From: Bizionia myxarmorum
GTDB lineage: Bacteria; Bacteroidota; Bacteroidia; Flavobacteriales; Flavobacteriaceae
Assembly: GCF_008086205.1 (NCBI RefSeq)
Contig: NZ_VSKK01000001.1
Coordinates: forward strand, 186,001-250,000
Reading direction: 5' to 3'
Length of the DNA: 64,000 nucleotides
Shown here one piece after another: positions 51,914-57,753 of this stretch (its first letter is position 1; the number at the start of each line of letters is the position of its first letter). The notes beneath the pieces were generated by a model that saw only the letters and a list, made by a program, of their open reading frames with translations, searched no databases and had not been told where the DNA came from. Position numbers and translations under genes: made by a program.

Positions 51914-54802
51914 TTATTTTAATTTCTTCTTAACTTCTACTTCATGGTAAGCTTCTATAATATCGCCTTCTTTAAGGTCGTTGTAGTTTTTAATTTGCAT
52001 ACCACAATCGTAACCTTTAGCAACTTCTTTAGCATCATCTTTAAATCGTTTTAATGATGATAATTCACCTGTGTAAATCACCACGTTTTCACGAATTAAA
52101 CGAATACTAGAGTTTCTGAATATTTTACCTGTTAATACCATACAACCAGCAATACTTCCAATTTTAGAAACTTTAAAGATTTCTCTAATTTCAGCAGTAC
52201 CAGTAATCTCTTCTTTAAGTTCTGGAGATAACATACCTTCCATAGCATCTTTAAGATCGTTTATAGCATCATATATAATAGAATACATACGGATATCAAT
52301 TTCTTCCTTATCTGCAATGCTTCTAGCATTACCCATTGGACGAACGTTAAATCCTATAATAATAGCATCAGATGCCGAGGCAAGCAACACATCACTTTCC
52401 GTAATTGGTCCAACACCTTTATGTATAATATTAACTTGAATTTCTTCAGTTGATAATTTCTGGAACGAATCCGTTAAGGCTTCTACAGAACCATCCACAT
52501 CCCCTTTAAGGATTATGTTTAATTCTTGGAAATCACCTAATGCAATACGACGACCAATTTCATCTAAAGTAATATGACGTTGTGTTCTAACCGACTGTTC
52601 ACGTTGTAACTGTGTACGTTTTGTAGCAATTTGTCGTGCTTCACGCTCATCATCGAAGACATTAAATTTGTCACCCGCTTGTGGTGCTCCATCTAAACCT
52701 AATATAGATACTGGCGTTGATGGACCGGCTACTTTAACCTCCTGTCCACGCTCATCTTGCATGGCTTTAATTTTACCGCTATTTCTACCAGCTAATACAT
52801 AATCTCCTATTTTCAGAGTTCCTGATTGGACTAAAATAGTTGATACATAACCACGACCTTTGTCAAGGAATGCCTCAACAACGGTTCCAGCAGCACGTTT
52901 ATTTGGATTCGCTTTTAGCTCTAATAATTCAGCTTCAAGCAATACTTTTTCTAATAATTCTTTAACACCTGTTCCTTGTTTTGCTGAAATATCTTGAGAC
53001 TGAATTTTCCCACCCCAATCTTCAACTAAAAGGTTCATACTAGCAAGTCTTTCTTTAATCTTTTCAGGATTTGCTGTTGGTCTATCTATTTTGTTAATGG
53101 CAAAAATAATTGGCACACCCGCTGCTTGCGCATGGGAAATAGCTTCTTTAGTTTGTGGCATAATATCATCATCCGCTGCAATTACAATAATAGCGATATC
53201 CGTTACTTGGGCTCCACGAGCACGCATGGCTGTAAAGGCCTCGTGACCAGGCGTATCCAAAAATGCAATTTTTTGACCATTATCTAATTGAACACCGTAG
53301 GCGCCAATATGTTGTGTAATTCCACCTGATTCACCAGCAATAACATTTTCTTTACGAATATTATCTAATAAAGATGTTTTACCGTGATCCACATGTCCCA
53401 TTACGGTAACAATTGGCGCACGCTCTACTAAATCTTCTGGTTTGTCTTCTATAACCTCTATAGCTTCTTCAATACCAGCAGTAATAAATTCAACTTCAAA
53501 GCCAAACTCATCTGCAACAATAGTTAAGGTTTCTGCATCTAGACGCTGATTCATGGTAACCATTAAACCCAATGACATACATGTAGAAATAATTTGGGTT
53601 ACTTGAACATCCATCATAGTTGCCACCTCACTAACGGTAACAAATTCCGTTACTTTTAGAATTTTACTATCTGCAGCTGCAGCTTGTAAATCCTTCTCGG
53701 TTTGATCACGATGCTGATCTCTTTTATCACGACGGTATTTAGCACCTTTCCCTTTACTTGATTTCCCTTGAAGTTTCTCTAAAGTTTCACGTACTTGTTT
53801 TTGTACATCTTCTTCACTAGGTTCTTCTTTTACTAAAGTACGACGTCCTTTTCCGACGGCAGGTTTACCTTTAAAGCGTTCGTTGCCACCTCTAGCAGCT
53901 GTTCCTGGAGTTGTTGTAGTAGTTCCTGGCGCACCAACTTTACTAATACGACGACGCTTCTTTTTAGGATCTGACGCTTTTTCAACAACTTTCTTCTTCG
54001 GCTTTTTAAATTGAGATAAGTCAATTTTTTCACCAGCAATTTTTGGACCCGTAAGTTTTTGGTATTGCGTTTTTACCAGTTCTTCAACTGGCGCATCCGA
54101 AACCTTTAAATCTTCACCTTTAGGCGCTTGAACTTTAGATTCTTCACCTTTAGATGTTTCTTTTTTATCATCGTCAGCTTTTGGAGCTTCAGATTTCGGC
54201 GCATCAACTTTAGGAGTATCAGCTTTAGGTGTTTCCGCTTTAGGAGTTTCGACTTTTGGTTTATCGGCTGGTTTAGAAGATGGCGTGTCTTCTTGCTTCG
54301 CTTTAACTTCTGGTTTTTTACCCTCTTTAGCTGTTGGCGTTTCAGAAGATTTTGGTGCTGCTTCAACTTTCACCTCTGGAGTTGGCACAGCCGCTTCCTC
54401 TTTAGGTTTTTCAACTTTTTTCTTATCAGCATCCAAGTCGATTTTACCAACTTGCTTAGGTCCTGCTAGGGTTGACTTCGCCTTAACAACTTCAGCCTCT
54501 TTAGCTTTAGCTTTGGCTTCGCGGTCTGCCTTCTCTTGTTCCTTTGCCTCAATTTCACGCTCACGCTGCAACCTTATCGCCTCTTTCTCTTTTTGTTTAG
54601 CCTCATTAACTTCTTGAGATGCCATTTTTTTATTGGCATCTGTTTGAAACTCATTGGAAAGCACATCAAATGTTTCTTGAGAAATTTTCGTAGTTGGACG
54701 CTTCTCTATTTCGATGCCTTTAGAATCTAGATATTCTACAGCTCGATCTAAAGAAATGTTTAGCTCGCGTAATACTTTATTTAATCTAATTGTTTCAGCC
54801 AT
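51914..54802 (-). CDS. infB: Translation initiation factor IF-2
   Basis: A 962-residue IF-2. Its N-terminal domain begins [22 protein letters not shown] long charged linker follows (about 70-300), rich in Lys, Glu, Ala and Pro with repeats such as [19 protein letters not shown]. The G domain (about 460-625) has [26 protein letters not shown] and SAKQGTG. Domains II-IV (about 640-960) follow. It brings initiator tRNA to the ribosome. It is the last gene of the operon, 29 bases after nusA. The linker length accounts for its size. Confidence 0.96.
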
Positions 54803-54831: not shown

Positions 54832-56064
54832 TTATTCTTCGAATTCTTCTCTAAGAATTCTAATTACTTCATTAATTGTTTCTTCCTCTAAATCAGTTCT
54901 TTTTACCAAGTCTTGAACGTCTTGTTCTAAGATGCTCTTCGCAGTATCCAAACCAACTTTACTAAATTCTTTAATAATCCAAGGTTCAATTTCATCACGG
55001 AATTCTGATAATTCCACATCTTCTTCTGCACCTTCTCTAAATACATCAATTTCATAACCAGTTAATTGACCAGCTAAACGGATGTTGTGACCACCACGTC
55101 CAATTGCTTTACTAACTTCTTCTGGTTTTAAAATAGCCTCTGCACGTTTGTTTTCTTCATCAATTTTAATAGATGTAACACGCGCTGGACTTAATGCTCT
55201 TGTAATATATAATTGTAAGTTACTAGTATAATTAATAACGTCAATGTTTTCATTTCCTAATTCACGAACAATACCGTGAATTCTTGAACCTTTCATACCT
55301 ACACAAGCACCTACTGGATCAATTCTATCATCATAAGAATCAACAGCTACTTTTGCTTTTTCACCTGGAATACGTACAACTTTTTTAATGGTAATTAAAC
55401 CATCAAAAACTTCTGGTATTTCTTGTTCAAACAATTTCTCTAAAAATACAGGTGCAGTTCTAGACATGATAATGGCTGGCTTATTACCTTTAAGCTCAAC
55501 GCTTTCAATGATACCACGTACATTATCACCTTTTCTAAAGAAATCTGAAGGAATTTGTTTTTCTTTTGGAAGAATAATTTCATTCCCTTCATCATCTAAT
55601 AAAATGACTGCTCTGTGACGGATATGATGAACTTCAGCTGTATAAATTTCGCCTATTAAATCTTTAAATTGCTTGTATATATTCGTGTTATCGTGTTCGT
55701 GTATTTTTGAAATTAAGTTTTGTCTTAACGCTAATATAGAACGACGTCCTAAATCGATTAATTTTACTTCTTCCGATACATCTTCACCAACCTCAAAATC
55801 CGGCTCAATTTTACGAGCAGCCGATAATGAAATTTCTTGGTTTGGCTCTTCTACTTCACCATCTGCAACAACAATTCTATTTCTCCATATTTCTAAATCC
55901 CCTTTATCAGGGTTTATAATAATATCAAAATTATCATCATCACCAAACTTCTTTTTAAGAGCGTTTCTAAAAACGTCTTCTAAAATCGCCATTAACGTTA
56001 CACGATCGATTAATTTATCGTCTTTAAACTCCGAAAATGAGTCAATTAACGCAAGATTCTCCAT
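54832..56064 (-). CDS. nusA: Transcription termination/antitermination factor NusA
   Basis: A 410-residue NusA. It has the N-terminal RNA polymerase-binding domain (about 1-130), S1 domain (about 135-200; GEIYTAEVHHIRHRAVIL), and KH1 and KH2 (about 205-345; GACVGMKGSRIHGIVRELGNEN in pieces, and AIGRGGHNIRLAGQLTGYEI). A short C-terminal acidic helix follows in place of the two acidic repeats of E. coli. It modulates pausing and termination and, in some bacteria, its own operon. It lies between rimP and infB with short gaps. Confidence 0.96.
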   Translation of the reverse strand: MENLALIDSFSEFKDDKLIDRVTLMAILEDVFRNALKKKFGDDDNFDIIINPDKGDLEIWRNRIVVADGEVEEPNQEISLSAARKIEPDFEVGEDVSEEVKLIDLGRRSILALRQNLISKIHEHDNTNIYKQFKDLIGEIYTAEVHHIRHRAVILLDDEGNEIILPKEKQIPSDFFRKGDNVRGIIESVELKGNKPAIIMSRTAPVFLEKLFEQEIPEVFDGLITIKKVVRIPGEKAKVAVDSYDDRIDPVGACVGMKGSRIHGIVRELGNENIDVINYTSNLQLYITRALSPARVTSIKIDEENKRAEAILKPEEVSKAIGRGGHNIRLAGQLTGYEIDVFREGAEEDVELSEFRDEIEPWIIKEFSKVGLDTAKSILEQDVQDLVKRTDLEEETINEVIRILREEFEE

Positions 56065-56076
56065 ATCTCTTTTGAA

Positions 56077-56538
56077 TTAAAATTTTATCATAACTTTTGC
56101 TTCTATAATATCATGGTAGGCTATTTCTGCCTCTTTGTCCACAGTTACTTTTCCTTTACCAACTGGCTTAGGCTCTCTAGCTTTCCACTGTACGGTAATA
56201 TGTGTATCGGTGGCATTTATAAGTTGTCCCTTTACCTGATCCTCTTTAGTACGAATATCTAAATCCCTACCAATATTTTTTTTGTATTGTCTGGCATGAA
56301 CTAAAGGCGCTGTTGCACCTCCTGAAGCCACTTCCAAAGAATAATCATGCTCCTCTCTATCAATATTATGCTCGATAGCGCGACTAATAAATACGCAATC
56401 ATCTACTGTTACACCACTATCACCGTCTATAATTATTGAAATGGAATTATCAGCCCCCATGGTAAAATCGATCAGAAATAAATCCTCTCGTTCCTCAAGC
56501 GCTTCATGCAATAATGTTTCTACTGTTTTTCTTAACAT
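56077..56538 (-). CDS. rimP: Ribosome maturation factor RimP
   Basis: A 153-residue RimP required for 30S maturation. It has the N-terminal alpha/beta domain (MLRKTVETLLHEALEER, DLFLIDFTMGADNSISIIIDGDSGVTVDDC in pieces), YSLEVASGGATAPL with the usual 'SPG' loop changed to SGG, and the C-terminal SH3-like domain. I start at the ATG at 56536-56538 because family members start there; an in-frame ATG 16 codons upstream (56584-56586) would place a strong hairpin inside the coding region. First gene of rimP-nusA-infB. Confidence 0.92.
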   Translation of the reverse strand: MLRKTVETLLHEALEEREDLFLIDFTMGADNSISIIIDGDSGVTVDDCVFISRAIEHNIDREEHDYSLEVASGGATAPLVHARQYKKNIGRDLDIRTKEDQVKGQLINATDTHITVQWKAREPKPVGKGKVTVDKEAEIAYHDIIEAKVMIKF

Positions 56539-56554
56539 ACGATTCGAAAAATTG

Positions 56555-56584
56555 GTATAAAAAGAGGGGACGTCAGGTCCCCTC
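56555..56584 (-). promoter_or_regulatory. Terminator-like hairpin in the rimP-nusA-infB leader (possible attenuator)
   Basis: On the minus strand GAGGGGAC (56584-56577) pairs perfectly with GTCCCCTC (56571-56564) around a 5-base loop and is followed directly by TTTTTATA. It lies about 20 bases downstream of the predicted transcription start and 20-25 bases before the rimP ATG. This is the shape of an intrinsic terminator inside the leader. Confidence 0.6.
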
Positions 56585-56609
56585 ATTTATTCTTTTTCTT
56601 ACTACGCTG

Positions 56610-56617
56610 CAAAGATA
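56610..56617 (-). promoter_or_regulatory. Putative -7 box (TATCTTTG) of rimP-nusA-infB
   Basis: Minus strand TATCTTTGC at 56617-56609, a close match to the flavobacterial consensus, giving a leader of about 65 bases that contains the hairpin. No clear -33 TTG. Confidence 0.6.
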
Positions 56618-57556: not shown

Positions 57557-57590
57557 AAAAGCCTCCGCAAAACGGAGGCTTTTGTTTTTT
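57557..57590 (+). terminator. Rho-independent terminator after the universal stress gene
   Basis: AAAAGCCTCCG (57557-57567) pairs perfectly with CGGAGGCTTTT (57573-57583), loop CAAAA, then GTTTTTT. Confidence 0.88.
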
Positions 57591-57680: not shown

Positions 57681-57753
57681 TTGGCCCACTAGGGCTCGAA
57701 CCTAGACTCTTCGGTACCAAAAACCGACGTGTTGCCAGTTACACCATGGGCCA
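57681..57753 (-). tRNA. tRNA-Gln, anticodon TTG
   Basis: A 73-base cloverleaf on the minus strand. Acceptor arms TGGCCCA (57753-57747) and TGGGCCA (57688-57682) pair with A73 at 57681. The anticodon stem TCGGT/ACCGA encloses loop TTTTGGT with anticodon TTG, reading CAA. The T arm has GGTTCGAGCC. The U1-A72 pair is typical of bacterial tRNA-Gln. The 3' CCA is not encoded (the next bases are CAA). It is a single gene in the 371-base gap between the stress protein and DUF2723 genes, with its own promoter. Confidence 0.95.

Follow-up and report, generated by a model that had tools for sequence, protein, structure and literature searches.

Leaders that limit transcription of the rimP operon have been described in other bacteria. 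The rimP-leader of Naville and Gautheret (2010; PMC2965389) lies 4-130 nt before rimP and has a G-rich 5' arm, a C-rich 3' arm and a T stretch. As presented there, it has no antiterminator and shows conserved stem letters with a GGGc/gCCC core; the main text of that study does not mention Bacteroidota. In Bacillus subtilis, NusA is autoregulated through NusA-stimulated termination in the 5' leader, according to PMC12288461 (citing Mondal 2016). For Flavobacterium psychrophilum, Guerin et al. (2021; PMC9723704) report a structured 5' element upstream of rimP that is conserved in other Flavobacteriaceae genera and has no Rfam hit, and their main text gives neither a structure nor a mechanism for it.

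The leader considered here precedes rimP-nusA-infB in a 64,000-nt stretch of Bizionia myxarmorum DNA (the window). It shares with the rimP-leader its position (20 nt before rimP in the window and 6-23 nt across the first 30 relatives), a G-rich 5' arm and C-rich 3' arm followed by a T stretch, conserved stem letters and the lack of a visible antiterminator. The core differs, being GGGGAC/GTCCCC: GGG..CCC is present, but most relatives have A-U as the pair past the G run, and some have G-C (GAGGGGGC). At ~70 nt, the leader is also shorter than the B. subtilis rimP leader, given as ~180 nt in PMC2965389. Like the B. subtilis nusA-operon leader as outlined in PMC12288461, it has an intrinsic terminator, here a predicted one, in the 5' leader of the operon that it would limit; the response to NusA was shown there and is a prediction here. 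The F. psychrophilum element, likewise upstream of rimP, Flavobacteriaceae-wide and with no Rfam hit, is almost certainly the same element, compared by description (PMC9723704).

The Rfam family RF01770 (rimP) has the same gene and position but is a 102-position model, whose gathering cut-off of 47 bits is reached by none of the 31 genomes searched, hence by no Flavobacteriales genome among them, and which gives no hit in the window. At a low threshold it yields scattered, uninformative matches in all genomes. An Rfam search of the window and the leader returned no hit to any leader family, and a weak resemblance to sraA (21 bits, E 0.44) was dismissed as that of a generic GGGG/CCCC terminator. 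The element is a well-supported case of the published rimP-leader attenuator (PMC2965389), in a family for which a rimP 5' element had been listed in 2021 (PMC9723704). The present analysis contributes its structure and covariation, surveys the phylum, rejects a leader peptide and shows that the stem letters are nearly frozen.

Anatomy of the Leader and Its Operon

The sequence-only reading had claimed a strong -7 box, a perfect 8-bp GC-rich hairpin with a T tail and a rimP start about 20 bases on, and all three are found on the minus strand, upstream of rimP. The promoter box TATCTTTG (56617-56610) is of the Bacteroidota type TAnnTTTG and stands 25 nt from the stem. The terminator hairpin (56564..56584; -14.4 kcal/mol, with covariation described below) consists of stem GAGGGGAC (56584-56577), loop CTGAC (56576-56572) and stem GTCCCCTC (56571-56564), forming eight perfect pairs. 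Directly 3' of it lies the U tract TTTTTATA (56556..56563), that is, T5 at 56563-56559 and then ATA. With a start placed ~5 nt past the -7 box, the predicted short leader RNA is ~47 nt long (56559..56605, minus strand). The rimP ATG follows at 56538-56536, 20 nt past the T run.

Read on the plus strand, the palindrome runs into the tail ATTTATTCTT, which makes a poorer U tract; the terminator is thus oriented towards rimP. A folding test of 106 nt, for which the plus strand was used, is unimpressive by itself (z -1.9; 7 of 200 shuffles), and the significance of the hairpin comes from comparison across relatives rather than from single-sequence folding. Everything from the promoter to the start codon, with the hairpin and U tract between them, lies inside ~80 nt, and this simplicity suits the leader to tests of factor-dependent intrinsic termination.

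All three genes of the operon are on the minus strand. The longest rimP frame opens at ATG 56586 and is longer by just 16 residues; NF002531, the equivalog model for RimP, covers residues 17-169 of this frame (208 bits against a cut-off of 123), which sets the real start at ATG 56538 and the gene at 56077..56538. It is followed by nusA (54832..56064; TIGR01953, 363 bits) and infB, encoding IF-2 (51914..54802), a 962-aa open frame with GTPase motifs that is named by sequence and operon order. A universal stress protein gene is divergent from the operon. Just past that gene lies a strong hairpin flanked by a T tract on either strand (57557-57583), apparently a two-way terminator separating the gene from a tRNA at 57681-57753.

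Leaders of this kind are rare in the organism's own genome. In 464 kb, 58 leaders have a promoter-like box pair within 160 nt of an ATG, and a terminator-like hairpin occurs in two of them, the rimP leader and a tRNA terminator before an integrase-like gene. The latter (L124:5080-5046, minus strand) sits between a tRNA-like sequence and a 441-aa tyrosine-recombinase-like gene, with the ATG of that gene starting directly at the U tract; this locus resembles an element that has integrated next to a tRNA gene. A regulon sharing the hairpin was also considered and rejected: the strict pattern (see below) occurs once per genome, and the second-best place that a covariance model picks out in the organism's own genome (30.7 vs 46.6 bits) holds an ordinary terminator at the end of a gene.

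Conservation and Pairing in Flavobacteriaceae

The stem is conserved in close relatives. Promoter, hairpin and T tract are present in all of the first 30 relatives, which were found by RimP and in which the -7 box is 20-30 nt upstream of the stem; the closest relatives are Bizionia species. A hairpin, in a few cases imperfect, also occupies the rimP-leader position in 80 of 80 named genomes from Bizionia, Lacinutrix, Psychroserpens, Winogradskyella, Flavobacterium and others. A regular expression for GAGGGGAC identified the 53 carriers of that stem and missed swapped stems. The other 27 hairpins were recognised by eye and are mostly GAGCGGAC/GTCCGCTC (Lacinutrix, Psychroserpens) or GAGAGGAC/GTCCTCTC (Winogradskyella), compensatory swaps in two genus groups. 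In the 53 carriers, the box lies 23-29 nt before the stem, and 49 of the 53 scored keep the tail TTTTTATA; loop and spacer vary, and the stem letters are near-invariant in relatives. The strict motif GAGGGGACN{2,9}GTCCN{0,2}TCTTTT is found in 149 of the 199 family genomes, always as a single match, and its reversed control in none, so the motif is not due to chance.

Two-sided changes affect four of the eight stem pairs. In 57 distinct hairpins of equal length, two-sided changes at these 4/8 pairs compare with 0.7 after shuffling, 99.6% of cells are paired (95.8 shuffled), 12 cells have a two-sided change (0.9 expected) and the covariation score is 0.127 (0.052 shuffled), figures that lean towards structure because the hairpins were picked with at least 7/8 pairs and the sequences are related. 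None of 500 shuffles reaches the observed values, and pairing drops to 42-74% in slid controls. Pairs were counted on equal-length hairpins only, since MAFFT misaligned hairpins of unequal loop length. The fourth stem pair has been swapped independently in separate genera, appearing as G-C, C-G and A-U, and these swaps provide the firmest evidence for the predicted pairing.

The same comparison bears on a proposal of the sequence-only reading, that a ribosome starting at an ATG at the base of the hairpin (56586-56584) would melt it. The ATG exists, is in frame with rimP here and is kept in the genus. However, only 24 of the 53 relatives scored have ATG at this position, the others having ACG, GCG, TTG, CTG, AAG, TAG or GTG; differing loop lengths shift the frame, and no regulatory codons are shared. 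Attenuation through a leader peptide with a conserved short frame is therefore rejected, and ribosomal melting of the stem is scarcely credible.

Recurrence Across the Phylum

Beyond the first 30 relatives, a terminator-like hairpin with a T tract precedes rimP in 79 of 89 more distant leaders, several from the same genera and with hairpins called at a chosen score. The antisense control gives 8/89 and a shifted upstream window, which partly overlaps the target, 9/89. The stems differ fully between groups, as in AAAGTGGGG/CCCCACTTT, AAGTCCCGC/GCGGGACTT and ATAGCCCG/CGGGCTAT; unrelated stems at the same place indicate that position and structure persist, T tract included, under a turnover of the letters. 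These unrelated stems in other classes, together with the compensatory swaps and the T tract on the rimP side, make it very improbable that the near-invariant palindrome just past the promoter is a DNA-level inverted repeat bound by a repressor.

About 10 of the 89 distant leaders have no clear terminator. At five rimP loci (L079, L101, L105, L116, L119), no leader terminator was detectable by the scan used, which may reflect genuine loss or a misplaced start. Inverted polarity, with a C-rich 5' arm, occurs in other classes as GTCCCGC/GCGGGAC and TAGCCCG/CGGGCTA (L033, L034, L036 and L038, L051, L056). Escherichia coli K-12 has GGGC-TTTA-GGCCC-T7 at the same place, shortly upstream of rimP.

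One family of the same class (f22; L042, L045, L060, L061, L090, L121) keeps the stem GAGGGGAC/GTCCCCTC letter for letter, and a C or G following TCTTT breaks its U tract (TCTTTCATTA or TCTTTGTTTA; interrupted form CTCTTTCATTA at L042, L045 and L061). Such a tract is poor for plain intrinsic termination, and these leaders, if still terminating, should lean heavily on a factor. The weak tract might also suggest that the hairpin does not terminate and chiefly shields the 5' end of the mRNA or impedes the loading of ribosomes on rimP; in the first 30 relatives, just 6-23 nt separate the T run from the start codon, which brings the stem near the expected 30S footprint. This is improbable, however, because in nearly all relatives a T tract directly follows the stem, recurring with unrelated stems phylum-wide, and protection alone does not need it.

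Probable Attenuation and the Candidate Sensor

A promoter-proximal terminator of the rimP-leader type that attenuates rimP-nusA-infB is highly likely, and it very probably limits its own operon. This upholds the attenuator-like terminator first proposed for the 5' leader, through family conservation, compensatory changes, recurrence in the phylum with different stems, and published precedents. RNA polymerase would start at the -7 promoter and make ~47 nt (41-51 nt, median 48 nt, in 100 leaders, again with a start assumed ~5 nt past the box). The hairpin and U tract would halt a fraction of complexes ahead of the rimP start codon, and the remainder would continue into the operon; that termination occurs in the cell, and that it is partial, we infer. 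Since the rimP start codon lies past the T run (by 6-23 nt among the first 30 relatives), polymerase should arrive at the terminator earlier than any ribosome can begin on rimP.

The extent of read-through would depend on a factor that targets either polymerase or the hairpin. In the 100 leaders, pairing probabilities reveal no competing fold: stem pairing probability is at least 0.988 for the leader alone, with a median of 0.997 when 60 nt of rimP are added, so no RNA antiterminator is visible. Without a competing fold or a conserved leader peptide, control of read-through should fall to a protein, most probably NusA. It is the strongest candidate on the B. subtilis data (PMC12288461) and on early work in E. 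coli that PMC2965389 cites; stimulating intrinsic termination, it would exert negative feedback on its own operon. We put a probability of about 0.7 on this full explanation, a rimP-leader-type intrinsic terminator with a partial stop and NusA as the most likely factor. That NusA is the main sensor, a point drawn from other phyla, has perhaps an even chance.

The terminator may instead be real and answer to RimP, a cold-shock protein or NusG. RimP binds rRNA, and its feedback is named as a possibility in PMC2965389; antitermination by CspA-family proteins has been proposed, and disputed, for E. coli nusA-infB (PMC6511841); and near-frozen stem letters fit a specific binder. The B. subtilis data favour NusA, and a different factor is possible but rather doubtful. 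The near-invariance of the stem letters is more than a generic terminator would need, which raises the idea of a specific reader protein. In this speculative and still less likely scheme, NusA, RimP or polymerase itself would read the hairpin letters, and Bacteroidota rimP leaders would be minimal ~47-nt factor-sensing terminators with no aptamer or antiterminator, their letters changing between classes with the reader.

The phylum-wide reach and the near-frozen stem letters are the interesting part of this rimP leader. Through it, the Bacteroidota, little studied in transcription control, join the rimP-leader scheme, and their element is short and amenable to testing. Should NusA prove to be the sensor, leader-terminator feedback on NusA would extend to another phylum.
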